Origin: Tetraselmis striata
Taxonomy: Eukaryota; Chlorophyta; Chlorodendrophyceae; Chlorodendrales; Chlorodendraceae
Length of the DNA stretch: 64,000 nucleotides
Reading direction: 5' to 3'
Assembly (NCBI GenBank): GCA_006384855.1
Contig: VCJN01002357.1
Coordinates: 62,001-126,000 of the forward strand
Shown: in pieces, positions 20,228 through 63,049 of the stretch
Layout: the number at the start of each line of letters is the position of its first letter
How positions within the stretch are numbered: the first letter of the stretch is position 1
Position numbers and translations under genes: made by a program
The notes under the pieces: generated by a model
What the model was told of the DNA's origin: nothing
Database searches by the model: none
Seen by the model: the letters and a program-made list of their open reading frames with translations, nothing else

Positions 20228-21571
20228 CACCCCTCCACATAAGTTTGGGGTCCCTTTTCGGCAGTCTCAAGACTTCACAAGTCTAGGGTACCTGAACGTA
20301 GGGTATATGAGATGAAACCCTGGAATCTCAGAGGGCTTTATAAAACCTGCATGACGAGTGGCTCAAACCGAAGCTTAATGACCTTTGACTAGGGAATCAC
20401 GCTGCACTTGGTGCGTGGATGGGCGTCGCCTGCAACTGCACCAAAACCGGGGTCGGTATCACGCACACGCCGACGCGCGTGCATAGGCAACCAAACGGCG
20501 GGATGGCCATGAACGCGTGAGGAAACACATTGGCGAGGGGCTCGGGTGCATTTGGTTGGGGTGCAGCCGTGTGGGCGGCGGCCAGTGCATGTCGCGTTGC
20601 GATACTGGCATGGCATCAGTGTCGGCCACGCGCGGCAACACCCCCTTGGCTTCAAAACGCTGTAACTTTTCAGGGTTTGCTCAGAAAAACTTTTTAAAAA
20701 TATCACGCCATTCCTCGTTCAATTCTGCGTCGGGAACACTCTTCCATAATCACAAAATCGATTTTTGGGTCTCCGGAAAAAATCCCCAAAGATGATCATC
20801 CAAGTTGCCCCTCACTGCCTCATGTGCCCACCCATATCGGGCGCGTGGCTTTGCGCCAAGTGCGTGTCTAAGCCCCATACTCAGTTGCGCGAGAGCGTTA
20901 TGTATGTGGATGACCACGGACCACCAACACTTGGCATGTGCCACCTCCTAGCGATACACACATCTACTAGCCAAAATGCCATTTTCCACAGCATTTTTCA
21001 AGGAATTTCATATTAATCAAAATCCACGCCCCTACCGCGCCACCCCGCCCACGAAACGGTGCAACTGGCATTCCACCACGCGCCCCCATAGTAGAGCATT
21101 GCCCTACGCCAAGGGGGCCATCGAGCGCCTCTCCTACGTGCGTTCGCCACAGAAACAGCAGCATTTTCACCCCAAAACTGCTCCCCACAGTGGCCAACTT
21201 GACGTTGGGATGTCACGTCGTGCCTATAGCGACATGCTTTCGGTGGCCTACACGCACGGTGTGTGCAACTTATGCCAAGGGCCGTATCCACCGGGTTTGG
21301 TGCGACGAGTGCCGCTATTTCCATAGGTTTGGACGGTTGGCGCAACCCACAACTTTCTGGCGCCAACGCACCATGCAATGATTTCGCGTTTTTGAAAGGG
21401 CGCCCACAAATGGTCGTGTTGTCGCGCGGGTGGGTATAAAGCGCACAATAGGCGTTCGCCCGAACTATTCCCACTGTAGTTAGCATGTATGCACATGCAG
21501 CCGGCGTTATCCTCGCCCATGCATGCGCTTTGCGATCGAAAATGCAAAACCCGGACTTATGTGGAGGGGTG
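20228..21571 (+). mobile_element. TIR element family Z, copy 1 (1344 bp)
   Basis: Starts CACCCCTCCACATAAGT and ends with its inverted repeat ACTTATGTGGAGGGGTG. TA precedes the left end, but TG follows the right end. The interior holds no transposase-like ORF (frames of about 100 codons only). It is followed by a 176-bp spacer and an almost identical second copy, so the unit repeats every 1520 bp. Confidence 0.75.
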
Positions 21572-21747
21572 TGCGCCGCGCCAAGCGCGCTCGACGAGGT
21601 CGCAATAAGGCGTCTTGGGACAGTGAGCCCTTTCGAGCCCGTGGCTCGCATGTGGATGCGTCATGGGCATATGCAGCCAGTAGGAGCATTGGGGTGATTC
21701 AAACATGCCGCGTCGGCCGTATATGGCCGAATGACATATGGCCAACA

Positions 21748-23092
21748 CACCCCTCCACATAAGTTTGGGGTCCCTTTTCGGCAGTCTCAAGACTTCACAA
21801 GTCTAGGGTACCTGAACGTAGGGTATATGAGATGAAACCCTGGAATCTCAGAGGGCTTTATAAAACCTGCATGACGAGTGGCTCAAACCGAAGCTTAATG
21901 ACCTTTGACTAGGGAATCACGCTGCACTTGGTGCGTGGATGGGCGTCGCCTGCAACTGCACCAAAACCGGGGTCGGTATCACGCACACGCCGACGCGCGT
22001 GCATAGGCAACCAAACGGCGGGATGGCCATGAACGCGTGAGGAAACACATTGGCGAGGGGCTCGGGTGCATTTGGTTGGGGTGCAGCCGTGTGGGCGGCG
22101 GCCAGTGCATGTCGCGTTGCGATACTGGCATGGCATCAGTGTCGGCCACGCGCGGCAACACCCCCTTGGCTTCAAAACGCTGTAACTTTTCAGGGTTTGC
22201 TCAGAAAAACTTTTTAAAAATATCACGCCATTCCTCGTTCAATTCTGCGTCGGGAACACTCTTCCATAATCACAAAATCGATTTTTTGGGTCTCCGGAAA
22301 AAATCCCCAAAGATGATCATCCAAGTTGCCCCTCACTGCCTCATGTGCCCACCCATATCGGGCGCGTGGCTTTGCGCCAAGTGCGTGTCTAAGCCCCATA
22401 CTCAGTTGCGCGAGAGCGTTATGTATGTGGATGACCACGGACCACCAACACTTGGCATGTGCCACCTCCTAGCGATACACACATCTACTAGCCAAAATGC
22501 CATTTTCCACAGCATTTTTCAAGGAATTTCATATTAATCAAAATCCACGCCCCTACCGCGCCACCCCGCCCACGAAACGGTGCAACTGGCATTCCACCAC
22601 GCGCCCCCATAGTAGAGCATTGCCCTACGCCAAGGGGGCCATCGAGCGCCTCTCCTACGTGCGTTCGCCACAGAAACAGCAGCATTTTCACCCCAAAACT
22701 GCTCCCCACAGTGGCCAACTTGACGTTGGGATGTCACGTCGTGCCTATAGCGACATGCTTTCGGTGGCCTACACGCACGGTGTGTGCAACTTATGCCAAG
22801 GGCCGTATCCACCGGGTTTGGTGCGACGAGTGCCGCTATTTCCATAGGTTTGGACGGTTGGCGCAACCCACAACTTTCTGGCGCCAACGCACCATGCAAT
22901 GATTTCGCGTTTTTGAAAGGGCGCCCACAAATGGTCGTGTTGTCGCGCGGGTGGGTATAAAGCGCACAATAGGCGTTCGCCCGAACTATTCCCACTGTAG
23001 TTAGCATGTATGCACATGCAGCCGGCGTTATCCTCGCCCATGCATGCGCTTTGCGATCGAAAATGCAAAACCCGGACTTATGTGGAGGGGTG
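21748..23092 (+). mobile_element. TIR element family Z, copy 2 (1345 bp)
   Basis: Same termini as copy 1. By eye the only difference from copy 1 is one extra T in the T-run at about 22285. TA follows the right end (23093-23094) but CA precedes the left end. Copies 1 and 2 together are therefore flanked by TA on the outside only, suggesting that one insertion was later duplicated together with the 176-bp spacer 21572-21747. Confidence 0.75.
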
Positions 23093-25970: not shown

Positions 25971-26246
25971 ACTGCTTTTAGTGGTGGATTTCTTGCTGGC
26001 CTTTTTGTGATTCACACCTAATCTCTAGTCGCTAATCGTCATAAGTGGTAAGGATTAATCCTTACACGCCATAAGGATTATTTATATGGTACGGTACGGG
26101 TGTGTTACCAGAGACAAGTATAAATGGACTACCGGGAGATATCTCAGAAGCCGCCAGAGCCGGGATAGCGGCCGCCCGTAAGACATACCGTGGGTACCTG
26201 TACTTGTACGTACTCGTAGCGCGACCCTGTACCGCGTCGTCCCTCG
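25971..26246. other. pre-insertion host sequence and 5' target copy
   Basis: No gene seen. The last 5 bp (CCTCG, 26242-26246) are the left target-site duplication of the Copia element. In the empty allele this stretch would be joined directly to 37229, 180 bp upstream of the MYND gene's ATG, so it may hold that gene's original promoter. Confidence 0.55.
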
Positions 26247-26571
26247 TGTTGGCTAGTCAGACCCTGGCTAGCCCTGCTTTGTCAAACCCTACACCCGACA
26301 GTTGAATCACCATCGTCACCATGTCAGGTGACCGTTCGGCGACCCGGCGGTTCCCCTCCCCTATACAAGGGCAACGCTTAGCAGTTCTAGTAGTTTCACT
26401 TAGAGACCCTAGAGATACCGGCTAACTACCCGTATCCATCAAGAGTGCGTGCGAGGCTGACCGAGGTGTGACCGTTCAGCCGCACGACCATACATATATA
26501 TAGCCCGGAATTCCGGAACTGTAATCATTCCTTCCTTCTCTGCTTCCAGTTCCTGAGCCATCCCTTTGTCA
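26247..26571 (+). repeat. Copia 5' LTR (325 bp)
   Basis: TGTTGGCTAG at the start, TTTGTCA at the end. Differs from the 3' LTR at 26304, 26390 and 26486, each G here and A in the 3' LTR. It contains tatatatag near 26497-26505, the best candidate TATA box, and the same string is the site later split in the 3' LTR. Confidence 0.93.
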
Positions 26572-27006: not shown

Positions 27007-28000
27007 ATGACTTCGGCAACCTCCGGCGCATCCCCCGCTGTCCTTCTTGAGGAGAGCACCATGCAACGTGTCGAGCCACAGCGCGCTCCCAAACTTGCGG
27101 ACCGGGCAAGCATTGAAGATTTTATCACATGGCGCAAGTCCTTTACATCATGGGCTGCCAGAAACGGCCTCGCTGAGGCCCTGGCCGGGGGCAGTGGCTA
27201 CCTGCGTCAAAATCTTCTCTTCGAGTGCGTGGAGGCAGCCGTTCAACAAAATCCTCTTGCAACTGCGGAGGTCAATTATTGTACCCCTCTTGACAACGAT
27301 GTCCTCGCTATCGACAACCATCATGGCGCGGCTGCATGGGGAGCGGTGTTAAACATGTTTCAGCAGCACAAGCATAGGCACGTAAAAACGGTACTGGACG
27401 GCCTGCGCCGTGGTCAACTCGCACATGAAGACTTAGGCGCCTACCTTTATCGCATGCAGACTGCGCGCCGTACCTTGCGTACAACCCTGGAGGCGGAGCT
27501 TACGGACGACGACTTCATGGATCTATATTTTGTTCCCGGTATTCACGAGCGCTATATATGAGAAACTGCGGGACGACTTGGAGGAGCTACGGGCAGATGG
27601 CATCCATTGCGACTACGCACCGCTCCGCGGCAAGGTCATGATCAAGGCTCTTCGTGAGGCCGCCAGGCGCCCGTCGTTGTCACCGCACGTTGACCTTATT
27701 ACTCGCGCTCCTGCTCCCGTCACCCCACCACCAGTGGCAATGTCGGCGTCGCTCCCTACCCAGTCCTACCCCGACCGTGAATGCAGTCGCTGTGGTCGTT
27801 CCCGTCACACAGCACCGTATCGCTGGCAAACACGGCACGTCAACGGCTCCAGGCTCCTTGATTCCCCGCCGGCGGAGAAACCTGCGTGGCTTGCCAGCGG
27901 CGGCCTTCGCACTTCAGCGGGAGCACGCCCGAACCTTGTCAAGTCCCAGCCGCCTGTGTTCCCTGGCGGGCGGCCCACTGGCGCTATCGCCAGCGCCCCC
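27007..28000 (+). CDS. Copia gag, with apparent frame changes
   Basis: From ATG 27007 one frame runs to 27561 with a Copia-gag-like helical region (EDFITWRKSFTSWAARNGLA, LDGLRRGQLAHEDLGAYLYR). Coding sense then continues in the next frame from about 27535 (YEKLRDDLEELRADGIHCDY) to a zinc-knuckle-like CSRCGRSRHTAPY in which the last Cys of CCHC is missing. It returns to the first frame near a C-run at about 27996-28005, where the long pol ORF takes over. The two changes cancel. They may be programmed frameshifts, inactivating indels or sequence errors. The end coordinate is approximate. Confidence 0.65.
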
Positions 28001-31000
28001 CCCCCACCGTGGAGTTGCCTGGGGACGGTTTCGTGTGCATGGCTCACGCCCCCGCTTTTCCGCTCTCCCTTCCCATCTGCGACGGATTCAATGTGCCCTC
28101 CCCCACCGTCGCCGAGACTACACCTACTGAGCTCCCGCAAGGACAGCGCAGTTACTCCGTCTCGGCCGGCTGTGATGGATTCGATGAGCTGTTCGACGTG
28201 GTGGATGGAACGCGTGCTGGCGGAGAGGGCGCTGAGTGCGCCACCTATACTGACTGCGGTGACTGCGGTTTCCTCAACGACACCACGGCCGCGCGGAGTG
28301 GCGGCGTTGGTCTGGCTGGGCGCGGCGGTCAGCACGACACATGTGCCCTACGTGGATCGGCCTCACCCCTCATCGACCACACAAATTGTGGGCGTCACTA
28401 CTCTCTCTACACTGATGCCCCATCTGCCGCTGGTCCACTCCGGCCACGTGGCCATTCCTCACTTTGCACGCATGCCCTTGACAGCGTATCACTGCCGTTG
28501 GAGCAACCCGCCATTGACCATCACTCACCAGTCACGGGCCCTGCGACTCCGACTGGCTGCACCGCAACCATGGACATGTGCGTGCCATCCGCATTGGTTT
28601 TCACAGCTGCTGCTGCACCCCCCGCCTCCGCCCCGGAGCTTCCGTCCCTTCAGACCGTGGGCCTGGTGCCTCTTCCTCATGCTCTCATCATCAATCACTT
28701 CTTCGGGCTGTGCTGCGGTGGGAGGCTCTCTCTGCTCGACGGCATGCTGACGGCAGGCTTTGCGGTCACTAGGATGACACTTTGCGAAATTAGTCCCGTG
28801 CGGAGACGTTGGGCTGCGGACCGCCTTCGGATGCTGTCTGCCGAGTACCCGACCCAGCTCCACGAGGACGCCTTTCAGGAGGCGTTCTCCTCTACGCCGC
28901 AAGACGTGACCTTAATCACTGAGGATGTGCTTGCGGCCATGCCTCCAGTCACCCTGGTTGCTGCGGGGCCCTGCTGTGAGCCCTGGTCTAGTGCTGGCTC
29001 CGGTCGCGGGTGGGAGGATATGCGCAGCGGCGTCATGGCAGCCGTCATTCGCATTGTACGGCATCTGGCGGATGCGCAGCCTGCCTCAGTTTCTTACTTA
29101 ATAGAAAATGTGCCGGGAGCGCTGAAGTGTCCAGAGCTTATCCTCTCTCTTGGCGAGCCTCTCATCGTGAACGCGTTGGACTGCGGTTCGTCGGCTGCCC
29201 GGCGTACACTCCTGTGGACCAACGCCGCTCCTTATAGCTCTCTCATGGACCACTACGCCGCTCAACGTCACTCGGCTCCGCCACTGGCGTCGGTGCTGTC
29301 ATCGCACGGCATGTCGCCCGAATGGACATGCATTCGCCCTGACCAACATCACCTCCCTAAACTAGTCGCAACGGCAGGGAGTTATGCCTTTCGTCCTCAG
29401 TCGGACGGATCTCCTGGTGCTGGCATGCTGATGCATTTTGGAAAGATGGAGGAACCGGATGCTCTAGTGCGCGCTCTCATCATGGGTTTCCCTAGGAACG
29501 CGGTGCTCTGCACATCTATCCCCAACAACGAGTTGTGTGCAGCCCTCGGAGGCTGCGTCGACCGCAACCTCGCGGTCTGGTTCTTCCGGGCCGTGGCGGC
29601 CTATCTTTGCACATCTATACCCTGTGCGGCTCTACCCGCGTGTGCTGTTCTTCCCAACACCGCACCTCCCAGTCCTCAGCTATTCCTCCTGGACAGCGGC
29701 GCATCGTGGCACGTCGCTGGGCGGCGTCGTCGTTTCTATACTTACACGACACTGGCATCCTCGGACCAGTTTCGCCTTGGCGGCCTACGCGCAACAGTTT
29801 ACGGTGTGGGTACCTTACACGTTACTTACACATCTACCGCTGGTCAACCAGTCGTCTCCGTTTTGCGGAATGTACTCCACGCTCCCGGCCTTCTCACCGC
29901 CACTCTTCCGCACGCAGTGGAGTTCCTTTTCAGCCAGAGCGCAGCGCAGTCCTCCGGCGCGACTTTCTACTTCGGCCCCAGCACTTCTACCATGACGCTC
30001 CCCTGCGGCGCGGACGTCAATGTGGAACGTATGCACGATGTCGGACTCTACGCGTTGCACGCTGTCGTGACCTCTTCTGCCGATGCGCCCCAAGCTAGTG
30101 CTCGCACACTCGCCTCTCCCGTGCCGGTGGCGGCGGCCGCTGTCGGCCGTTCGGGCGGTTTTGCTGGCTCTCGTGCCCATGCTGCACTCCTCCATGCGCG
30201 GATGGGTCACACCCATCATGACGGCATCTTGCGAACCGCCAAACTGGTGCCCAGTCTCCCCTATGTTACCGGTGCCCCGCCATTCTGCGAGGTATGCGCA
30301 CTCGTCAAGTCCACCGTTGCTGCAGTTCCTCGCACCGTCGGCTCACGTTTCGAGCATGAACCATTCGCCGTACTCAATCTCGACATATGGGGACCTATGG
30401 CTCCGTCGCTTCACGGTCGCCGCTGGATGATTGGCGCCAACTGCCGGCGCACGAATGTTCACCTGGCGGGCAGTCTTGTTACGCAGTCCGAGGCCGCAGG
30501 TGCCGTGGATCGCTTCTTGGCTTTTGCACGCCGCAAGGGCTTCACTGTCCGTCAGATCCGCGTTGACCGCGCTGCTGTGTTCATGTGCTCTTCTCTTGAG
30601 AAGATCTGCAAAGACGCTAATGTGGATATGCAGACGTGCGACAGCTATAGCCCTCATCAGAACGCGCGTGCGGAGCGCCCTTGGCGAACCCTGGCCTGCA
30701 TTGCCAAATGCCAACTGCTCTATGCCGGTCTACCCCTTAGTTTCTGGGAGCTCTCTTGGTACCATGCAGTCTACATCATCAATCGCAAGTGGAGCGCAGG
30801 ACCCGCAAATGTCCCGTTGCTCGCTGCTGGTCAAGAGGTAGACCTCTCCGGCCTGCGGGTCTTCGGCTGCCCGGCCTACGTGCACCTCGACCGTACGCTT
30901 CGCCGAAAGGCGGACGTGGCAGCATGGAAGGGCATATACGTGGGTCAGTCGCCTAATTCTCCTGGCTGGCAGGTGTATAACCCAACCACCGGCGCGATCT

Positions 31001-33411
31001 CGGTAACACGCAGTGCGGTGTTCTGCGAGACCTGGAGGCAGGGCCACACCTTTCCATTCGGTTCCCAGTCCTTTTCCAGCGAGCCCTTGTTGGACTCACC
31101 AAGTGAGGCGGCGACGCTATACCCTCAGTCGCCAGCGCTCTCTGTCGATGACGACGATGACCATGCGCAACCCCCCACATACATTTCCACCGGCATCATA
31201 CACCCATATGTGGACTCTCCACTATCGCCTGCCTCTCCGCCTCCCCGCTCCGTGGCCAACGACGACCATACCCCCGCACCGCAGCCGGTTCTTCCTCAGC
31301 TGCCCTCCTCAATGGCCTCACCTTCGTCAACTCTCCTCTCTGCGGAGACCCCCACGTCGCCTCTGCAACGTGGTTCTTCCCTGCCTCCCACCACCCCGTC
31401 CAAGGTCAGCCCCCACGCTGTGGCTGATTCTTCCTCTAGCGACGGCGCCGACAACGCTGCCGTGGACGTCCGCCAGCTGCCACCACTGCCATCTTCCCCG
31501 CCACTGCGTCGCAGCACTCGTATCCGCTCCAGCACCACCGATGATTCCTACGTCTACTATGGGACCACCAAGTCCTCATGCCCGGCTGCCCCGGCTGCAG
31601 TCGTGGACTCAGTTTCGCTTCCCTCCACCCTCTCTCAGCACGACATCCCGTGCGACGCCGGTGTGCCAACCGCCCTCTTGGCGTGCGCGATACCTCGACC
31701 TGACACCGCGGGCCGGGAATTTCACCCCCGTTCTCCAGCTCCTACCTCCAGCTTTTGCCTTGCAGCCTCAGCACCTCGCCATTCCCCTGGTGGAGATCTA
31801 CCTCCTGACCCGCTCACTTATGACGAAGCCATGCGCTCCCCCTACGATGCGGAGTGGCAGGCTGCCGTTGCGGCAGAAAATACTGCCCTTCTCGCTAAAC
31901 AGACGTGGAAAGTGTGTCCACTCCCCGCTGGGCATAAGGCGCTCGGCACCCGGTATGCCTTTCGGACTAAATTCTTAAAGAATGGGTATGTTGACAAGCG
32001 CAAGGCTCGTTTCGTAGTTTTGGGCAACCACCAACGCCCCGGCATCGACTTTGACAGCACCAAGCTGTATGCGCCCGTGGTCTCTTTTGTCTCCATCCGC
32101 ATACTGCTCGCCCTGGCTGTTTACCTTCGTCGTCGCATCTACAACATGGACGTCACCACTGCGTTTCTCAATGCCAAGGTCACTGAGGAAATTTACATAA
32201 ATCTTCCCCGCGGCATGGAGGAATTTTCTGAGAGTGGCGAACCTATGGTGGGTCGACTCCTCCGCGCTCTCTACGGCCTCCGCCAGTCACCCGGCCTTTG
32301 GTTCACAGAGCTCGACAACTATCTCAAGCGCAATAACTTTCGACAGTGCACATCGGATGGGTGTGTGTATGTACAACTCGTTGGCACCGACGGGGACTTC
32401 GCAGCTGTTGCAATCTACGTTGATGACATCATCATCCTCGAGGCCGCGGATCCCGCGTGGTACCCGGCATTCAAGACTCGTTTGCTGGCCGAGTTCGACT
32501 GCACCGACGCTGGCCTTTGCACCTGGCTCATGGGGATGGGCCTCGACTGGGACGACGATGACGGGTCCGTTATCCTTCATCAAACTAAATACATTCACGA
32601 TGTCCTTGCCACCTTCGGCATGACAGACTGCAACCCGCAGAGCCTACCGTGTCGCGTGGACACCCGTCTCTCAGCCACTGCAGGCACTCTCCTACCAACC
32701 GATCAAGTGTCTCTATACAAGCAACTGGTGGGCAGCCTTCTGTGGCTCTCTGTCTGTACCCGCCCGGACATCACTGCGATAGTCACCAAGCTTTGTTCTT
32801 ACAATCACAAACCCACAGACCAGCATTTGCTGGCAGCTAAGGGCGTGCTTCGCTACCTCGCCGGCTCCGCTACCCTTGGTCTACACTATACCCATACCAC
32901 AGCCCAGTCCTTCGTCCCATTGTTCGCAGCTGACTCCGACTGGGCAGGGGATGCCGACGACCGACGCTCCACATCCGGCCATGTCGGTTGTCTCTCTGGG
33001 TCCGCTTTCTGTTGGGGCTCCCACAAGCAAGTCACTACCGCTCTCTCTTCATGCGAAGCAGAATATGTCTCCGCGTCTGAAGCTGGACGCGTCATTATGT
33101 TCTCTCGCCAGTTTCTGTGCGAGGTTCTCGGACCGACTGCCTTGAAGGACCATCCCGTCACTCTCCAGTCCGACAATGAAGGCTCACTTTGCAACCTGCG
33201 TCAACTTTCTGTGGGCCGGAAGTTGCGACATGTCGACATCCGATATCACTACGTTCGTGAATTGGTCGCGTCTGGAGCCATTCACGTGGAGTATGTCCAG
33301 TCTGCAGACAATCTTGCCGATATGTTCACCAAGGCTATTCCAAACCCAAGATTCTCCCAGTTGCGGGCCCGCTTCATGCGTGACCACCGTGCCCGTCCCC
33401 AACTCCCCTAG
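27886..33411 (+). CDS. Copia polyprotein: C5-DNA methyltransferase, protease, integrase, RT, RNase H
   Basis: 1841 codons without a stop. The frame opens at 27886 with a GTG, so translation probably enters from gag. Methyltransferase (about 28680-29610): RLSLLDGMLTAGF (motif I), TLCEIS (II), AAGPCCEPWSSAG (IV, catalytic Cys codon 28975-28977), YLIENVPG (VI), SAARRTLLWTN (VIII) and LIMGFPRN (IX-X), in canonical order. Protease LLDSGASWH (29692). Integrase HHCC zinc finger, then the catalytic triad: D 30382 (LDIWGP), D 30565 (RVDRAAVF) and E 30673 (HQNARAERPW). RT: WKVCPLPAGHKALGTRYAF, MDVTTAFLNA, LYGLRQSP and YVDD (32416-32427). RNase H: AADSDWAGD, SSCEAEYVS, LQSDNEGS and NLADMFTKAIP. All key residues look intact. 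The methyltransferase could mark element copies or the host genome; its role is inferred. Confidence 0.93.
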   Translation: MACQRRPSHFSGSTPEPCQVPAACVPWRAAHWRYRQRPPPTVELPGDGFVCMAHAPAFPLSLPICDGFNVPSPTVAETTPTELPQGQRSYSVSAGCDGFDELFDVVDGTRAGGEGAECATYTDCGDCGFLNDTTAARSGGVGLAGRGGQHDTCALRGSASPLIDHTNCGRHYSLYTDAPSAAGPLRPRGHSSLCTHALDSVSLPLEQPAIDHHSPVTGPATPTGCTATMDMCVPSALVFTAAAAPPASAPELPSLQTVGLVPLPHALIINHFFGLCCGGRLSLLDGMLTAGFAVTRMTLCEISPVRRRWAADRLRMLSAEYPTQLHEDAFQEAFSSTPQDVTLITEDVLAAMPPVTLVAAGPCCEPWSSAGSGRGWEDMRSGVMAAVIRIVRHLADAQPASVSYLIENVPGALKCPELILSLGEPLIVNALDCGSSAARRTLLWTNAAPYSSLMDHYAAQRHSAPPLASVLSSHGMSPEWTCIRPDQHHLPKLVATAGSYAFRPQSDGSPGAGMLMHFGKMEEPDALVRALIMGFPRNAVLCTSIPNNELCAALGGCVDRNLAVWFFRAVAAYLCTSIPCAALPACAVLPNTAPPSPQLFLLDSGASWHVAGRRRRFYTYTTLASSDQFRLGGLRATVYGVGTLHVTYTSTAGQPVVSVLRNVLHAPGLLTATLPHAVEFLFSQSAAQSSGATFYFGPSTSTMTLPCGADVNVERMHDVGLYALHAVVTSSADAPQASARTLASPVPVAAAAVGRSGGFAGSRAHAALLHARMGHTHHDGILRTAKLVPSLPYVTGAPPFCEVCALVKSTVAAVPRTVGSRFEHEPFAVLNLDIWGPMAPSLHGRRWMIGANCRRTNVHLAGSLVTQSEAAGAVDRFLAFARRKGFTVRQIRVDRAAVFMCSSLEKICKDANVDMQTCDSYSPHQNARAERPWRTLACIAKCQLLYAGLPLSFWELSWYHAVYIINRKWSAGPANVPLLAAGQEVDLSGLRVFGCPAYVHLDRTLRRKADVAAWKGIYVGQSPNSPGWQVYNPTTGAISVTRSAVFCETWRQGHTFPFGSQSFSSEPLLDSPSEAATLYPQSPALSVDDDDDHAQPPTYISTGIIHPYVDSPLSPASPPPRSVANDDHTPAPQPVLPQLPSSMASPSSTLLSAETPTSPLQRGSSLPPTTPSKVSPHAVADSSSSDGADNAAVDVRQLPPLPSSPPLRRSTRIRSSTTDDSYVYYGTTKSSCPAAPAAVVDSVSLPSTLSQHDIPCDAGVPTALLACAIPRPDTAGREFHPRSPAPTSSFCLAASAPRHSPGGDLPPDPLTYDEAMRSPYDAEWQAAVAAENTALLAKQTWKVCPLPAGHKALGTRYAFRTKFLKNGYVDKRKARFVVLGNHQRPGIDFDSTKLYAPVVSFVSIRILLALAVYLRRRIYNMDVTTAFLNAKVTEEIYINLPRGMEEFSESGEPMVGRLLRALYGLRQSPGLWFTELDNYLKRNNFRQCTSDGCVYVQLVGTDGDFAAVAIYVDDIIILEAADPAWYPAFKTRLLAEFDCTDAGLCTWLMGMGLDWDDDDGSVILHQTKYIHDVLATFGMTDCNPQSLPCRVDTRLSATAGTLLPTDQVSLYKQLVGSLLWLSVCTRPDITAIVTKLCSYNHKPTDQHLLAAKGVLRYLAGSATLGLHYTHTTAQSFVPLFAADSDWAGDADDRRSTSGHVGCLSGSAFCWGSHKQVTTALSSCEAEYVSASEAGRVIMFSRQFLCEVLGPTALKDHPVTLQSDNEGSLCNLRQLSVGRKLRHVDIRYHYVRELVASGAIHVEYVQSADNLADMFTKAIPNPRFSQLRARFMRDHRARPQLP

Positions 33412-33484
33412 ACGCTATTTCGTTTTCACCCCGTGTGTTCTCCACCATCAAGCCCCTTCCACTGGTGTTTGGTTTGTGGGGGGG

Positions 33485-33735
33485 TGTTGGCTAGTCAGAC
33501 CCTGGCTAGCCCTGCTTTGTCAAACCCTACACCCGACAGTTAAATCACCATCGTCACCATGTCAGGTGACCGTTCGGCGACCCGGCGGTTCCCCTCCCCT
33601 ATACAAGGGCAACGCTTAGCAGTTCTAATAGTTTCACTTAGAGACCCTAGAGATACCGGCTAACTACCCGTATCCATCAAGAGTGCGTGCGAGGCTGACC
33701 GAGGTGTGACCGTTCAGCCGCACAACCATACATAT
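33485..33735 (+). repeat. Copia 3' LTR, left part (251 bp)
   Basis: Identical in order to the first 251 bp of the 5' LTR with three A-for-G differences (33542, 33628, 33724). It ends ...CCATACATAT, where the tandem array begins. Confidence 0.93.
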
Positions 33736-34116
33736 TTACCCAAGGAGGCACGATTTGCCAAAGAATGTCAGCTCGCTTACATTGGAGGCTAAGACGAGAG
33801 CCACAGGCTTGGCCTGGGTGTCTCCTAGCGCAGAATGATGGCTGTGGGTGGGTGGGTGCGCGAGCCGGTTGAGGCGAGCGCAAAGCAGAGAGTGCCGGTG
33901 CCCGAGGGCGGATCCCTCAGGTCGTGGTGCTGGTGCGGGCCGGCAGGCCCCAGTCCGTGCGCCGACCGCGGGGATCGTGCGCAGTACAACATTGCTAAGT
34001 ACTGTAAACCTCTAGATGACTACATATGACGATTTACCCAAGGAGGCACGATTTGCCAGAGAAGAAAGCCAAAGGCTTGCACAGGTAGCGAAGTGTAGCG
34101 GCCGGACGGGGACGAG

Positions 34117-35385
34117 CTAGCAGCAGAAACGCAGCATAGCAGCTCGCTGCCGAGGCCGCGCCTTTGCGCAACCTGTGCGATGCCCACGTGACACTGGGGG
34201 GCGGCTGGGCGCCCGCCGCCAGGCGGGCGTCCCGCAGCCAGTCAGTGGGAGTGGCTGAAAAGGACCAAGCGGCGGAAGGCTCCAGCGGGGAGACGCTCCA
34301 AAACTTGGTCGGCAGGCCGGCGCCGGAGAGAGGTCGGCAAGAAGGTGGGGCTCGGCCGCCATCGACCCCGTCCAGGGCGCTCCAGAGCCCGGGCGCGGGC
34401 GCCGTGCGCGGGACGGGCGGCCCAGGTACTGTACACTGTACTGCAGTGACGGCCGTACCGCCAGGGATTGGCCGCATGCCTTAGCATAACAGCGAAGATA
34501 CTGGTACTTGTCGTACGCTGTCAGACCCCGCTGCTCCGCGAGGCCGCGGGCGGCGGTGTCGTCGGTCAGAATCCACAAGCGAGACTCGTCGCCGTCGCGT
34601 GGGGGTGGCTCCAGACCGGAAGGGGGGACTTGACCGAAGTAGGCGGAGTCGACGTACTCGAGCTCGGTGTCGAGTGCGTCCACCTCAGCAGGAAGGGGCT
34701 CTTGCGCTCCTTGCTCACCACCCTCGGGCGCAGGCGCGCCCGCGGGAATGGCTGGCTGGGTACCTTTGGGAGGAGGCGGTTGCACGGGAGGAGCGAGTCG
34801 AGCGAGTAAGGCGGCCGTAGCCGCCTCGAACTGCTCGGCCAACCGCTTCTCCAGGGCTATTGCTTGGGCCGTCAGGCGTTTTTCCAATTCGGTGTCGTCG
34901 TCGGTCAGAATCCACAAGCGAGGCTCGTCGCCGTCGCGTGGGGGTGGCTCCAGACCGGAAGGGGGGACTTGACCGAAGTAGGCGAAGTCGACGTACTCGA
35001 GCTCGGTGTCGAGTGCGTCTAGCTCAGCAGGAAGGGGCTCTTGCGCTCCTTGCTCACCACCCTCGGGCGCAGGCGCGCCCGCGGGAATGGCTGGCTGGGT
35101 GCCTTTGGGAGGAGGCGATAGCACGGGAGGAGCCAGTCGAGCAAGTAAGGCGGCCGTAGCCGCCTCGAACTGCTCGGCCATCCGCTTCTCCAGGGCTTCC
35201 GCTTGGGCCGTCAGGCGTTTCTCCAATTCCGCGACAGATGCCGCCGTGGCGCCGCCCGGGGCGTCGTCCACCAAGGCGTCTTCCGGTACAGGGCGAGGGG
35301 GCATCCTGCTGTCGCGGGGTGGGGAAGGTGTAGCGTCTCGGGAGGCTGAGGCTCGGGTCCGAGTCGGCATAGAGTAAGCTGACAC
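34117..35385 (-). CDS. 422-aa DIRS gag-like repeat protein, unit 2
   Basis: Uninterrupted ORF from ATG 35385 to a stop at 34117. The N-terminus is Arg/Ser/Pro-rich. Two direct 113-aa repeats (339 bp each) follow. Each has a coiled-coil-like helix (LEKRLTAQAEALEKRMAEQF), a Pro-rich linker with GTQPAIPAGAPAPEGG, an acidic LDALDTELEYVD and the block PRLWILTDD. After the second repeat comes ARGLAEQRGLTAYDKYQYLR, comparable to the D-x3-R-x-L...Tyr-x2-Leu-x-Cys block of the DIRS gag-like ORF at 5592-6560. The C-terminus is Arg/Pro-rich. A structural, self-assembling role is inferred; function is unknown. Confidence 0.6.
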   Translation of the reverse strand: MSAYSMPTRTRASASRDATPSPPRDSRMPPRPVPEDALVDDAPGGATAASVAELEKRLTAQAEALEKRMAEQFEAATAALLARLAPPVLSPPPKGTQPAIPAGAPAPEGGEQGAQEPLPAELDALDTELEYVDFAYFGQVPPSGLEPPPRDGDEPRLWILTDDDTELEKRLTAQAIALEKRLAEQFEAATAALLARLAPPVQPPPPKGTQPAIPAGAPAPEGGEQGAQEPLPAEVDALDTELEYVDSAYFGQVPPSGLEPPPRDGDESRLWILTDDTAARGLAEQRGLTAYDKYQYLRCYAKACGQSLAVRPSLQYSVQYLGRPSRARRPRPGSGAPWTGSMAAEPHLLADLSPAPACRPSFGASPRWSLPPLGPFQPLPLTGCGTPAWRRAPSRPPVSRGHRTGCAKARPRQRAAMLRFCC

Positions 35386-35674
35386 TCTGCTCGACTGCTA
35401 GAGTCGAGACTGCTTGCGCGAGCCGGTTGAGGCGAGCGCAAGGCAGAGAGTGCCGGTGCCCGAGGGCGGATCCCTCAGGTCGTGGTGCTGGTGCGGGCCG
35501 GCAGGCCCAAGTCCGTGCGCCGACCGCGGGGATCGTGCGCAGTACAACATTGCTAAGTACTGTAAACCTCTAGATGACTACATCTGACCATTTACCCAAG
35601 GAGGCACGATTTGCCAGAGAAGAAAGCCAAAGGCTTGCACAGGTAGCGAAGTGTAGCGGCCGGACGGGGACGAG

Positions 35675-36943
35675 CTAGCAGCAGAAACGCAGCATAGCAG
35701 CTCGCTGCCGAGGCCGCGCCTTTGCGCAACCTGTGCGATGCCCACGTGACACTGGGGGGCGGCTGGGCGCCCGCCGCCAGGCGGGCGTCCCGCAGCCAGT
35801 CAGTGGGAGTGGCTGAAAAGGACCAAGCGGCGGAAGGCTCCAGCGGGGAGACGCTCCAAAACTTGGTCGGCAGGCCGGCGCCGGAGAGAGGTCGGCAAGA
35901 AGGTGGGGCTCGGCCGCCATCGACCCCGTCCAGGGCGCTCCAGAGCCCGGGCGCGGGCGCCGTGCGCGGGACGGGCGGCCCAGGTACTGTACACTGTACT
36001 GCAGTGACGGCCGTACCGCCAGGGATTGGCCGCATGCCTTAGCATAACAGCGAAGATACTGGTACTTGTCGTACGCTGTCAGACCCCGCTGCTCCGCGAG
36101 GCCGCGGGCTGCTGTGTCGTCGGTCAGAATCCACAAGCGAGGCTCGTCGCCGTCGCGTGGGGGTGGCTCCAGACCGGAAGGGGGGACTTGACCGAAGTAG
36201 GCGTAGTCGACGTACTCGAGCTCGGTGTCGAGTGCGTCCAGCTCAGCAGGAAGGGGCTCTTGCGCTCCTTGCTCACCACCCTCGGGCGCAGGCGCGCCTG
36301 CGGGAATGGCTGGCTGGGTGCCTTTGGGAGGAGGCGATAGCACGGGAGGGGCCAGTCGAGCGAGTAAGGCGGCCGTAGCCGCCTCGAACTGCTCGGCCAG
36401 CCGCTTCTCCAGGGCTATTGCTTGGGCCGTCAGGCGTTTTTCCAATTCGGTGTCGTCGTCGGTCAGAATCCACAAGCGAGGCTCGTCGCCGTCGCGTGGG
36501 GGTGGCTCCAGACCGGAAGGGGGGACTTGACCGAAGTAGGCGAAGTCGACGTACTCGAGCTCGGTGTCGAGTGCGTCTAGCTCAGCAGGAAGGGGCTCTT
36601 GCGCTCCTTGCTCACCACCCTCGGGCGCAGGCGCGCCCGCGGGAATGGCTGGCTGGGTGCCTTTGGGAGGAGGCGATAGCACGGGAGGGGCCAGTCGAGC
36701 GAGTAAGGCGGCCGTAGCCGCCTCGAACTGCTCGGCCAGCCGCTTCTCCATGGCTATTGCTTGGGCCGTCAGGCGTTTCTCCAATTCCGCGACAGATGCC
36801 GCCGTGGCGCCGCCCGGGGCGTCGTCCACCAAGGCGTCTTCCGGTACAGGGCGAGGAGGCATCCTGCTGTCGCGGGGTGGGGAAGGTGTAGCGTCTCGGG
36901 AGGCTGAGGCTCGGGTCCGAGTCGGCATAGAGTAAGCTGACAC
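35675..36943 (-). CDS. 422-aa DIRS gag-like repeat protein, unit 3
   Basis: Near-identical copy of the protein encoded 1558 bp to its left, with a handful of substitutions in the coiled-coil and linker of the repeats (for example AIAMEKRLAEQF in place of AEALEKRMAEQF). The stop and start align exactly with the unit-2 copy. Retention of both full-length frames suggests recent amplification or selection on the protein. Confidence 0.6.
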   Translation of the reverse strand: MSAYSMPTRTRASASRDATPSPPRDSRMPPRPVPEDALVDDAPGGATAASVAELEKRLTAQAIAMEKRLAEQFEAATAALLARLAPPVLSPPPKGTQPAIPAGAPAPEGGEQGAQEPLPAELDALDTELEYVDFAYFGQVPPSGLEPPPRDGDEPRLWILTDDDTELEKRLTAQAIALEKRLAEQFEAATAALLARLAPPVLSPPPKGTQPAIPAGAPAPEGGEQGAQEPLPAELDALDTELEYVDYAYFGQVPPSGLEPPPRDGDEPRLWILTDDTAARGLAEQRGLTAYDKYQYLRCYAKACGQSLAVRPSLQYSVQYLGRPSRARRPRPGSGAPWTGSMAAEPHLLADLSPAPACRPSFGASPRWSLPPLGPFQPLPLTGCGTPAWRRAPSRPPVSRGHRTGCAKARPRQRAAMLRFCC

Positions 36944-37408: not shown

Positions 37409-38761
37409 ATGGACGATGGCGTAATAATGACCACCCCGGAGGGTCGGTTCAACCTGAGCACGCCGCAGGGCGCCGAGGCGTTCCTGGCCGCCGGGCCCGC
37501 CACCCTGATCACCACCAACGCCGACCAGCTTAAGGATAACTCGCTGCCCAAGCTGCACCGCGTGAGGATCATCCAGACCTGGGGCATCCTTGCCAGCTCG
37601 CTGTCTCCCGAGTCCCTGGCGCGCGTGCCGGCGGCGGAGAAGGAGTGCCTGGTGGAGACCGCGGCGGCGGTGCTGGCCGCCGAGGCGAAGCGGCCCAAGT
37701 GGCGCTCCGACGGCGAGCTGTCCCTGATCGGCAAGGAGCTATTCGACACGCTGACGCCGTGGTGCAAGGACGTGGCGGTGGTGCAGCTGCTGCTCGCCGG
37801 CGGGTCCAAGGGGCCGCTGGGGCAAGTGTGCGGGATGTGCCGGGAGGCTGAGCCCGGGCCGTGCTTCGACTTCGCTGAGACGTTCCTGCACACAGTTCAC
37901 AACTGCGCCATCAACCTCAGCAAGGAGTCCTACCCGCGCTACGAGAAGCTGTACCAGACCGGTGCGCTGGAGCAGGTAATGCGGATGGGGCTGTCGAGGG
38001 AGGCGCGGCGCATGCCGGAGCCCGCCCGCATCATCGACTATGTCCGCCGAGACAACAAGCTCGTCCGCAAGCGTTTCGCGCCCGACACGCCGGGCGACGC
38101 GCTTGTGCGGGAGGTGCTGGCCGACCCGGCTTCCCGCTCTTGCCCCGAGCTCCGATCCGCGCTCATGCAGCTGCTGCAGCAGGCCATCCTGGCGCAGGAC
38201 TCTGGCGTCTGCAAGATGATGTGCCGCAACTGCGGGAGGACGGGGGAGGACATGAAGAAGTGCGCGCGCTGCCAGCAGGCCGAGTACTGCAGCAGGGAGT
38301 GCCAGAAGGCGGACTGGAAGGCGCACAAGCCCACCTGCCGTGAGGCTGACGGCAAGGTCGTGGACCACAAGTCCGTGCAGTCCTTCCTCGCGCACGTGTT
38401 CCATTCCCAGATAGAGCCCATCAAGTTTGCGCTGGGCTCCAAGGCGATGCTGGTCCAGGAGGAGATCGGGAGCCGGCCCCCCGTGAAGGACCTCGTCATC
38501 CTCCTGGACCAGAGCGAGCCCAACACCAGGCCGAAGATTGCGTACGTGCACGACCTGCTGTCGCGCAAGGAAGACATGCCCGCGGAGTGGTTCCACAAGG
38601 GGACCGAGGTCTACGAGAACAACGTGCGCGCCTTCCTGGGCGCGCTGAAGGAGCAGCACTCGCGCATGCAGCCATGGCCAGGTCATCACCGCGGTGCGCA
38701 GCTTCGACAGCGCGGGGGTGTACCGCTTCCAGCCCGCGTCCGAGCAGTTCAGCGTGCATGA
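37409..38761 (+). CDS. MYND zinc-finger protein
   Basis: The ATG at 37409 opens a 450-codon frame. Residues 272-309 form a MYND finger: CRNCGRTGEDMKKCARCQ followed by EYCSRECQKADWKAHKPTC, with the full C/C-C/C-C/C-H/C set of ligands. MYND fingers bind proline-rich peptides and are often found in protein-protein scaffolds. The rest (N-terminal 270 residues and a domain around LKDLVILLDQSEPNTRPK) is unrecognised. Coding sense seems to shift frame near 38670-38690, where GQVITAVRSFDSAGVYRFQP continues in another frame to about 38800. The annotated C-terminal 30 residues may therefore be wrong because of an indel or an unseen small intron. The Copia 3' LTR ends 185 bp upstream, so the element sits in the promoter or 5' UTR. 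Confidence 0.82.
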   Translation: MDDGVIMTTPEGRFNLSTPQGAEAFLAAGPATLITTNADQLKDNSLPKLHRVRIIQTWGILASSLSPESLARVPAAEKECLVETAAAVLAAEAKRPKWRSDGELSLIGKELFDTLTPWCKDVAVVQLLLAGGSKGPLGQVCGMCREAEPGPCFDFAETFLHTVHNCAINLSKESYPRYEKLYQTGALEQVMRMGLSREARRMPEPARIIDYVRRDNKLVRKRFAPDTPGDALVREVLADPASRSCPELRSALMQLLQQAILAQDSGVCKMMCRNCGRTGEDMKKCARCQQAEYCSRECQKADWKAHKPTCREADGKVVDHKSVQSFLAHVFHSQIEPIKFALGSKAMLVQEEIGSRPPVKDLVILLDQSEPNTRPKIAYVHDLLSRKEDMPAEWFHKGTEVYENNVRAFLGALKEQHSRMQPWPGHHRGAQLRQRGGVPLPARVRAVQRA

Positions 38762-50869: not shown

Positions 50870-52110
50870 GGCGGCCGGATTACGCCGACCCGCTGCGTGC
50901 CCAGGCCACAAAGGCGACCCGGCGGCACAAAGTGCAGCGGCGGCTCGACGGCGCCGTTCAGCTGCGTGGGTGCAGTGGTGGCCTGATGGCGATCATGTGC
51001 GTGCTCGGGGTGCGAAAGCAACCGGGGCACAATCTGCAGCGGCGGCGGAATGATGGCGCCGACCAGCTGTGTGCCCGGGCTGCGAAACCGGCCCGGGCAC
51101 ATGCTGCAGCGGCGGCCCGTTGGCGCCGACCGGCTGCGTATCCGGGCTGCGGAGGCGATCGGGGCACTGGGTGCCGCAGCGGCCGGATGGCGCCGATCAG
51201 CTGCGTGGGTGCATTGGCGGCCTGATGGCGCCGACGACCAGCTGCGTGCCCGGGGTGCGAAAGCAGCCGGGGCACATGGTGCCGCGGCGGCCCGTTATAG
51301 CGCCGACCAGCCGCGTGCCCGGGGCTGCGGAGGCGAACGGGGCACATGGACGGTGCAGCGGTGGCTCGATGGCGCCGCCAGGTGCGTGCCCGGGCCGCGG
51401 AAGCGGCCGGGGCACATGGACGGTGCAGTGGCGGCCCGGTGGCCCCGACCAGCTGCGTGCCCGGGCCGTGGAGGCGACCGGGGTACATGGTGCAGTGGCG
51501 GCCCGTTGGCGCCGACCGGCCGTGTGCCCGGGCTGCGAAAGCAATGGTGGCAAATGGTGCAGCGACGGCCCGATGGCGCCAACTAGCCGCGTGCCCGGGC
51601 TGCGGAAGCGACCGAGGCATACTGTGCAGTGGCAGCCCGATGGCGCCGACCAGCCGCCTGCCCGGGCCGCTGAGGCGACCGGGGGCACATGGTGCAGTGA
51701 CGGCCCGATGACGCCGACCACCTGCGTGCCTGGGCCACGGAAGCAACCGCATCACGTGGTGCAGTGCCGGCCCGTTGGCGCCAACCCACTGCGTGCTCGG
51801 GCCGCGGAAGCGACCATGGGGGACATGGTGGAGCGGCATTTAAATTATGTCGTCAACTAGCTGCGTGCCCGGGGCCGCAAAAGCAACATCCGCACACGTT
51901 GCAGTCGCGGCCCGATGGCGCCGACCCACTGCGTGCCCATATACAACGCGGAAGCAAACTGAGCACACGGCGCAGCGGCGGCATGATGAGCCGACATGCT
52001 GCGCGTAGTGGCGGCCCGATGGCGCCGGCCGACTGTGTGGATGGCCCGGAGGCGGCATACGGTGGTGGCCGGTTTGCGCCGACCAGCTGCGTGCATGGGG
52101 CTGCGAGAGG
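50870..52110. repeat. GC-rich minisatellite, ~66-72-bp degenerate units
   Basis: Around 18 tandem, diverged units built of gcgtgcccgggctgcgga, agcgaccggggcacatggtg and cagcggcggcccgatggcgc. Spacing between gcgccgac anchors is mostly 66-72 bp with some truncated units. Long open frames on both strands (up to 293 codons) are by-products of the GC-rich repeat and are not annotated as genes. Confidence 0.85.
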
Positions 52111-61495: not shown

Positions 61496-63049
61496 GGAGG
61501 GGGGTCATGCATGGGCTACAGCACACAGCGGTCTTTGTCACACGCACCGGCGCCCGTACATAAGCGCAGTCAGATCCTCGCCTGGGCGATAGATGGATGC
61601 CACAAAGGGGCATGCAGCTTGCGGAGCGATGCCGCCCGGGCTAACCAATCCGTGCCACTGATCTGCGCTCGTGCATGCAGCCGCCTGGCAGCCGCTACCT
61701 GGAACCCGCGACAAGTGTGCCATTGCCCTAATATGCGGTGATTGGGTTTGCAGGCCCCCCAAAATGAAGCGTTTTGATGCAGCACCGCGTCGGAAGATCT
61801 GTGTGGTATTCGCGGCGGGTGGACTATTTTGCGCTTGGGTCTAGAAGCCCGACAATCTCGCGACCTCATGGGACGATGTATTCTACGTATCGTTGCGCTA
61901 CTGGCCTAATCACTGTATTTGTCCGTGATAGCGCGCGGCATTGGGCGTCGATATTCTGAGATATCTCAAGAAAGGATAACGTTTTCCCCTCCTTGCCAAG
62001 GGCGGGCCGGGGGGGGTCTGCACACACTGAACAAGCACTCACATTCTTCCTACGAAAGCATGATTCGCAAGAAACTGCCGAACCCTTGCCCATCTAGGAC
62101 AAAAACACATGTATCACGAATATGAGCAGAACGACTGGGGGAAGTGTCGCTTCAAAACGCTCCCGGAAAGTCTCTTAATATCATGCGTTTCTTATTATAT
62201 ACCCATGAAAGTGCGTCGGCACCTCTACTGCCAATTCGTCGGACTATCAAATAAAGAAACTGCTCACACAGACGAGGGGAGATTACGCAGCAGCACATGT
62301 ACTTATTGTGTCACACAATGAGCACACGAGGGTTTGTATGCATTTACAGGTTTTCAGGCAACGGCACAAAGAGAGGGCCCGGATGAAAGGTTTCAGCAGA
62401 GGGCATCGACCGGGAGCCTCTCCACAGAGGAACAGCTGCTACAGATCGTCGCTATGACCAGGTGTTGCTGCCACCCTGGAGCGCGTTACGGGCATGGGCC
62501 CCTAAAGATAGGGTGCTGAGGAACACCGTCGAAACCGCACGAAACTTGTTAAATCTCGCGCGCTTCATGGGGCACGATGTAACCAAAGAAATGCTACTGC
62601 TTTCATTTGCTCACCTGGCTGCTGGGCGTATCCAATATGCTGTCACCGTTCCCACGCCCCGGTCTCTGCGCTGGCCCGGCTGTTGGCACAGCGCCGGGGA
62701 CGCAGACACACAGGGGTTACGCGTGCCCACGCACACCCCTGCACGAGTATGGACAGGCATCATATGACCAAGCGGGGGGCATGACGGTGGACACATGATC
62801 AGAAATGAAGCACTATTACTGCACTATTACTGCATGTGGCAGCATCTCCTGCTCCCGCCATCATCACAAGTGGTGAGATGCCTAGATATTTCCTTCACTG
62901 CCTATCGCTACATAGCAGGCGACCGGGGCAACATGCACTGGACTGGGCGTTGGTGACTCGCTGCGGCGGCCAGAGATGGTGACTGGGGCCATGGTCACGG
63001 TCAGCGGATCTCGTGGCCCCTGTGGTGCGGCACCCGCCACTGGGCCGGC
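60792..63049. other. intergenic, no supported gene
   Basis: Holds a (TG)n microsatellite (61466-61491) and short open frames. Two plus-strand frames (62334-62519, 62462-62767) have mildly protein-like stretches (TVETARNLLNLARFMGHDVT) but no domain, splice context or start could be supported. Confidence 0.4.

Follow-up and report, generated by a model that had tools for sequence, protein, structure and literature searches.

The 64,000-nt stretch of Tetraselmis striata DNA analyzed here (the window; positions 62,001 to 126,000 of contig VCJN01002357.1, assembly GCA_006384855.1) holds what is almost certainly a Ty1/copia long terminal repeat (LTR) retrotransposon with a C5-cytosine methyltransferase domain. 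The element lies on the plus strand. Its two ends, 26246-26500 and 33484-33738, are formed by a 255-nt LTR-like direct repeat whose copies are 98% identical (4 mismatches); the 5′ repeat starts with TGTTGG, and a G-rich tract resembling a polypurine tract stands before the 3′ repeat. Between the repeats lie a stop-terminated open reading frame (ORF) of 184 aa at 27007-27561, assigned to gag by its position, and a pol-type open frame of 1841 aa at 27886-33411, in which Pfam reported DNA_methylase, Pol_BBD, gag_pre-integrs, rve, SH3_retrovirus, and RVT_2 in that order. The methyltransferase domain (310 aa, 28681-29610) is followed by the Copia protease domain (29683-29892; PF22936, 33.5 bits), the GAG-pre-integrase domain (30169-30312; PF13976, 18.9 bits, under the cut-off), integrase (30358-31032; PF00665, 16.3 bits, and PF25597, 68.2 bits), and the Copia reverse transcriptase (RT; 31900-32652; PF07727, 172.6 bits). 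Hallmarks of Ty1/copia elements are present, namely a Copia protease, integrase ahead of RT, and RVT_2, with SH3_retrovirus and RVT_2 scoring above their cut-offs and rve below.

An initial annotation, made from the letters of the window without database searches, had placed a methyltransferase at 28680-29610, between the gag and protease of what looked like a chlorophyte Copia element and within one uninterrupted frame that continued through RNase H. The placement is borne out, as is an open domain of 310 aa, with the correction that its frame starts at 28681 (the frame from 28680 contains 9 stops). Methyltransferase, protease, integrase, and RT do share a single frame, but the gag ORF ends in a stop and the frame is broken before pol, and no Pfam model reported RNase H in the window frame. 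The segment that we take to be RNase H was picked out by eye from its motif. The Pfam scan gave no gag match for ORF 27007-27561, and a zinc-knuckle-like string near 27780 sits in a different reading frame, with more frame changes before 27886. Because the gag ORF is stopped at 27561 and these frame changes follow, the window copy is probably dead as an autonomous element. Other copies have long open frames, including frames of 2152 and 2164 aa in two close copies, so gag and pol probably occupy one shared frame in intact copies, unlike the window copy. A second LTR pair was found at locus L045 (469 nt, 3 mismatches), which is flanked on both outer sides by CCCAT, resembling a target-site duplication; no 5-bp target-site duplication was seen flanking the window copy.

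The Pfam search that the initial annotation had proposed gave a match, contrary to the first outcome that it had named as refuting: PF00145 aligned with residues 330-414 of the window ORF at 29.5 bits (cut-off 22), and the domain scanned alone scored 33.2 bits. When the window's domain and six other Copia domains were each scanned alone, scores ranged from 22.6 to 41.8 bits, while in the longer ORF of L049 (19.4 bits) and in the related protein P0010 (19.2 bits) the score fell under the cut-off. We aligned seven of the methyltransferase domains (A1) and used the resulting profile for searches. Motifs IV, VI, VIII, and IX-X were located where the initial annotation had put them: motif IV, GPCCEPWS, at 28966-28989, with the catalytic-position Cys codon at 28975-28977 (C99 invariant in A1); motif VI, ENV, at 29104-29112 (E142, N143, and V144 invariant); motif VIII, SSAARRTLLWTN, at 29188-29223 (R174, W179, and N181 invariant), aligned with SAAHRARYFWGN of DNMT3A; and motifs IX-X, MGF ... 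GGCVDRN, at 29482-29568 (M268, G269, G290, D294, and N296 invariant). Motif I had been read as LSLLDG, and is more likely the LCCGG just upstream (GLCCGG, 28705-28722), in which C11 and G13 are invariant and which directly follows the first model strand (7-10). The catalytic-position Cys is retained in all nine aligned Copia sequences, as is the EN of ENV, with ENY in one row.

The predicted structure of the domain contains the whole C5 catalytic fold with the ENV motif VI. It is on this model that a DNMT3-like affinity is suggested, since the A1 profile scored a DNMT2-type tRNA methyltransferase (35.8 bits) nearly the same as DNMT3A (35.1 bits). Identity with the catalytic domain of human DNMT3A/3B is 16%. 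We have very little doubt that what lies here is a C5-cytosine methyltransferase module, DNMT3-like in kind, which belongs to a Ty1/copia LTR retrotransposon of a chlorophyte alga.

A search for further copies, also suggested by the initial annotation, was made in the T. striata genome (G000, 224 Mb, 2903 contigs; E ≤ 1e-3, best 128 of 502 candidates scored) and yielded at least 131 domain rows, with some elements giving more than one row and 25 of the 131 rows lying in open frames at least 2000 aa long. At least 18 full-length copies at 96-100% identity, the window's included, were found on 18 contigs, and the domain is stop-free in 16 of these 18; further domain groups stand at about 86-87, 55-66, 40, and 35% identity. 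In the window's family (family A), 23 of 24 RT places (72-100% identity) are preceded within about 5 kb by a methyltransferase row on their own strand, the exception being C1098 (locus L039), with no methyltransferase in the stretch analyzed. Among loci L031-L052, ten have both a methyltransferase and a Copia RT, and nine of them (L038 and L045-L052) show the order methyltransferase-integrase-RT on one strand. The other outcome that the initial annotation had named as refuting, family members lacking the domain, does not hold for family A as a whole, even with L039 as the one such relative; a separate Copia family is without the domain.

At the tenth locus, L037, the methyltransferase is on the opposite strand and belongs to a gypsy-type element. 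This second C5-methyltransferase ORF (329 aa; within L037:1-3036, minus strand, on G000:C2171) matched PF00145 at 25.5 bits, with DNMT3A as its best PDB match (E 9e-4), and is without the motif I part in this frame. Immediately downstream of it, past one stop but without a change of frame, comes a Ty3/gypsy-type RT (RVT_1, 86.3 bits), with RNase H past another stop. The Copia methyltransferase profile scored L037 at 96 bits, compared to 38 bits for P0003, an NCBI C5 methyltransferase.

The separate Copia family has an ORF of 1561 aa and about 42% RT identity. Searched in six frames with the A1 profile, the stretches analyzed at all 11 of its loci scored at most 1.8 bits, compared to 220-471 bits for 13 Copia-methyltransferase loci among L031-L056 (most of which are profile members or near-copies). 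The 1561-aa frame is complete in 5 of the 11 loci, the remainder being cut or decayed. Two polyproteins of this family that were scanned contain no methyltransferase and run from gag (under the cut-off) to protease at residue 450.

Selection on the domain was assessed in 18 family-A copies by comparing variants shared by two or more copies with singletons. Shared variants in the domain comprised 13 nonsynonymous and 19 synonymous changes, 0.26 of the neutral ratio (binomial p 1.9e-4), whereas the singletons (54 nonsynonymous, 28 synonymous, and 2 stops) gave 0.75, which was not distinct from neutral (p 0.13); the contrast between the two classes was significant (Fisher p 0.020). The shared-variant result was robust to kappa values of 1-4, to dropping the two stop-bearing copies, and to requiring sharing by three or more copies (0.24-0.37; worst p 0.0099). 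In the protease-integrase region of the same copies, three of which were partly covered, shared variants numbered 20 nonsynonymous and 42 synonymous (0.19) and singletons 70 nonsynonymous, 50 synonymous, and 3 stops (0.55). Mean pairwise dN over mean dS was 0.40 inside family A and 0.35 relative to L019. Since shared variants are constrained and singletons near neutral, the pattern of substitutions indicates that the domain is under purifying selection while elements move, at a strength little below that on protease-integrase, and degenerates once a copy has inserted. This selection supports a function for the element, and would be expected equally under either role that the initial annotation had proposed, methylation of the element itself or interference with host methylation.

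Relatives in other sources were found with the polyprotein of L048, for which the best 120 of 532 matches were considered using precomputed PF00145 and an A1-type profile. PF00145 was precomputed for 7 of these 120, namely P0004 and P0009, both from ENA contigs, and five Tetstr1 models; the profile added P0016 (ENA, 279 bits), P0010, P0034, and P0006 as domain bearers, and Pfam confirmed PF00145 in P0016 at 24.0 bits. Polyproteins P0004, P0009, and P0016 thus represent three further sources that carry the methyltransferase. Motif IV of P0004 (within residues 1001-1300) also departs from the usual form, reading TPDCQPFS, with Asp-Cys. A protein search with A1 (8000 candidates scored) gave three proteins, P0003 (E 3e-4) and two Tetstr1 models, of which P0001, where compared, is almost identical to the window and P0002 less so. 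The full-ORF search, when confined to the domain, returned no relatives, whereas the L048 polyprotein search did find some. BFVD contains C5 methyltransferases of similar fold, none of which stands out. A close viral or prokaryotic origin was considered and rejected, as no A1-confirmed relative was found among 54 pattern matches in viral_contigs or 45 in genome_contigs, an absence that is weak evidence given that only one or two short patterns were used; in phages, 12 records matched weakly (best E 4e-4), with no more than 29% of the query covered.

Trees of the two domains show no conflict in their supported parts. The methyltransferase tree groups families A and B (96/95) and C/D/E with P0004 (98/97), and both groups are backed by the RT tree, which with outgroups recovered A+B (100/99), P0016 with C/D/E and P0004 (99/96), and P0009 beside the methyltransferase-less 1561 family (92/94); the methyltransferase tree put P0009 with P0016 with little support (51/4). 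Without outgroups, 10 methyltransferase rows and 11 methyltransferase-less rows fell on opposite sides of one branch of the RT tree (100/100). Mapping the domain onto the RT tree required 3 changes with P0016 and P0006 counted as bearers, and a single clade for all methyltransferase-bearing rows was marginally rejected (AU p 0.028; 13 rows versus 21, root not known). The absence of conflict between the two trees would fit vertical inheritance of the domain over a long time with occasional loss, or else gain on several occasions.

Retrotransposon DNA methyltransferases (DNMTs) are known from LINE, DIRS, and Gypsy elements (PMC5890265, of which, as of the other papers cited here, excerpts were consulted), so the dinoflagellate and charophyte precedents named in the initial annotation stand; the Copia backbone of the window element is unlike any of these. 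KnitGypsy-Dnmt3 of Klebsormidium nitens (PMC5890265) is similar in having a DNMT3-type domain in an LTR-element Pol polyprotein, reportedly under purifying selection and in the green lineage, but it is a Gypsy element of a streptophyte, whereas here the element is a Copia (RVT_2, integrase before RT) of a chlorophyte with the domain between gag and protease. SymbioDIRS-Dnmt3 likewise has a selected DNMT3 domain in the ORF of the RT in several lineages, yet it is a DIRS element with a tyrosine recombinase, and two such enzymes methylated CG de novo in yeast (de Mendoza 2018, PMC5890265). SymbioLINE-Dnmt shares a retrotransposon-borne C5 DNMT and many copies, but is a LINE with an orphan DNMT type mostly in a separate upstream ORF (PMC5890265), and the excerpts of that paper describe the abundant Symbiodinium Copia elements as carrying no DNMT domain. 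The ParB-methyltransferase accessory proteins of algal DNA transposons (PMC12477816) are also methyltransferases carried by an algal transposon, but are predicted N4-cytosine or N6-adenine enzymes encoded by a separate gene of a DNA transposon.

The initial annotation had suggested that the Copia arrangement may be new. One sentence of PMC12344493 (2025) already puts some DNMT3s in LTR Copia and DIRS elements, citing the 2018 paper, but its excerpts give no chlorophyte, copies, anatomy, or selection, and those of the 2018 paper name Gypsy, LINE, and DIRS bearers. Beyond that sentence, searches of open-licence PMC articles, supplements aside, turned up no description of a Copia methyltransferase or a chlorophyte case, and no Copia methyltransferase is named in the excerpts of PMC6338049 and PMC8226300. 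Our results extend the few known cases of retrotransposons with C5 DNA methyltransferases by a detailed account of the Copia superfamily and of a chlorophyte, with selection and several lineages shown. Since PMC9998398, in the text consulted, identified no DNMT3 in any MMETSP green alga, such elements may supply DNMT3-like enzymes in green algae.

What the enzyme would act on is a separate question. In the mechanism that we propose, the methyltransferase would be made as part of the Gag-Pol polyprotein and packed together with RT and integrase, and cytosines of the element's double-stranded cDNA, or of the fresh insert, would be methylated before or at integration. The new copy would reach the nucleus pre-marked, and could thereby evade host recognition of unmethylated DNA or damp harmful expression. 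Methylation of cDNA has been proposed for SymbioDIRS-Dnmt3 (de Mendoza 2018, PMC5890265). Methylation of the element's own DNA is a tentative step, with a chance that we put a little short of even; for the full explanation, comprising the module's identity and self-methylation, we put it slightly above even. With their own methyltransferase, these Copia elements widen a known but rare class of genetic parasites that may put marks on themselves, and with Copia families with and without the domain in one alga, the question of why a transposon carries a transposon-silencing enzyme becomes testable through the methylation of young copies. It is also conceivable, if rather doubtful, that the methyltransferase has since ancient times been a fixed component of a Copia branch across several eukaryotes, lost in some families, passed between LTR superfamilies (for which the related domain next to the Ty3/gypsy-type RT of this alga can be cited), and acting in the particle, with the result that every new copy is methylated by the time it integrates, the parasite applying the host's silencing mark to itself during replication.

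Several observations weigh against self-methylation. The 1561-aa Copia family is very abundant and thrives without a methyltransferase, and the KnitGypsy and SymbioLINE domains gave no methylation in yeast, a result called inconclusive because human DNMT3B failed as well (PMC5890265). CpG depletion was not seen: the observed/expected ratio of CpG was 0.95 for the element, compared to 0.92 for the remainder of the window. Private C-to-T changes per 10,000 sites were 43.6 (CG), 55.9 (CHG), and 29.3 (CHH) in family A, compared to 16.1, 21.5, and 23.9, respectively, in the methyltransferase-less family. This excess at CG and CHG is weak (ratio of ratios 2.12, z 2.4, for one uncorrected comparison of two families); the corresponding value for transversions was 1.38 (z 0.9), and CHG transversions were also raised in family A, so the C-to-T excess is at most a hint of a methylation trace. 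Finally, motif IV of family A has PC changed to CC and Q to E, an unusual change by which the canonical Pro-Cys is absent; the Cys is kept, as the initial annotation had stated.

This last departure raises the possibility that the family A domain has lost catalysis and is retained for a structural or regulatory role. Motif IV reads GPCCEPWS in 17 of the 18 copies, GPCSEPWS in L007, and GPCCEPSS in the older L019, compared to PPC[Q/A/S]P[F/W]S in the other eight aligned Copia sequences; nevertheless, 17 of the 18 copies retain the catalytic-position Cys and the domain is still under selection, and we regard this loss as unlikely. Action in trans on the host genome, shifting host methylation to upset silencing of the element or its rivals, would be open to a DNMT3-like enzyme of high copy number that, having no visible targeting domain, could act on any DNA. 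The position of the domain adjoining gag, in a polyprotein shared with integrase, suits packaging better, and we consider action in trans quite unlikely, while noting that nothing in the present data separates it from self-methylation. The domain might instead methylate RNA, either element RNA or the primer tRNA, or merely bind nucleic acid. The A1 profile places the DNMT2-type tRNA enzyme level with DNMT3A, and RNA methylation was raised for SymbioLINE by de Mendoza 2018 (PMC5890265); an RNA target appears improbable to us all the same. That a methyltransferase of host or bacterial origin was joined to a single Copia copy by chance or in assembly, as might have been supposed from L039, is refuted by the near-identical copies on 18 contigs, the domain upstream of nearly every family-A RT, and the same order in divergent families and three other sources.

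Elsewhere in the window, neighboring minus-strand ORFs at 21013-21651 and 22534-23007 share their C-terminal sequence, which marks them as a repeat or local duplication. At 33857-36754 lies a direct duplication, spaced by 1558 nt and holding 339-nt tandem repeats, and each copy contains a minus-strand ORF of 422 aa, which had no Pfam match in the one copy scanned. It is followed by a plus-strand ORF of 450 aa (37409-38761) with a MYND zinc finger (44.9 bits), and arrays of a 67-nt tandem repeat, in 3.1 and 10.6 copies, are located at 50998-51938.
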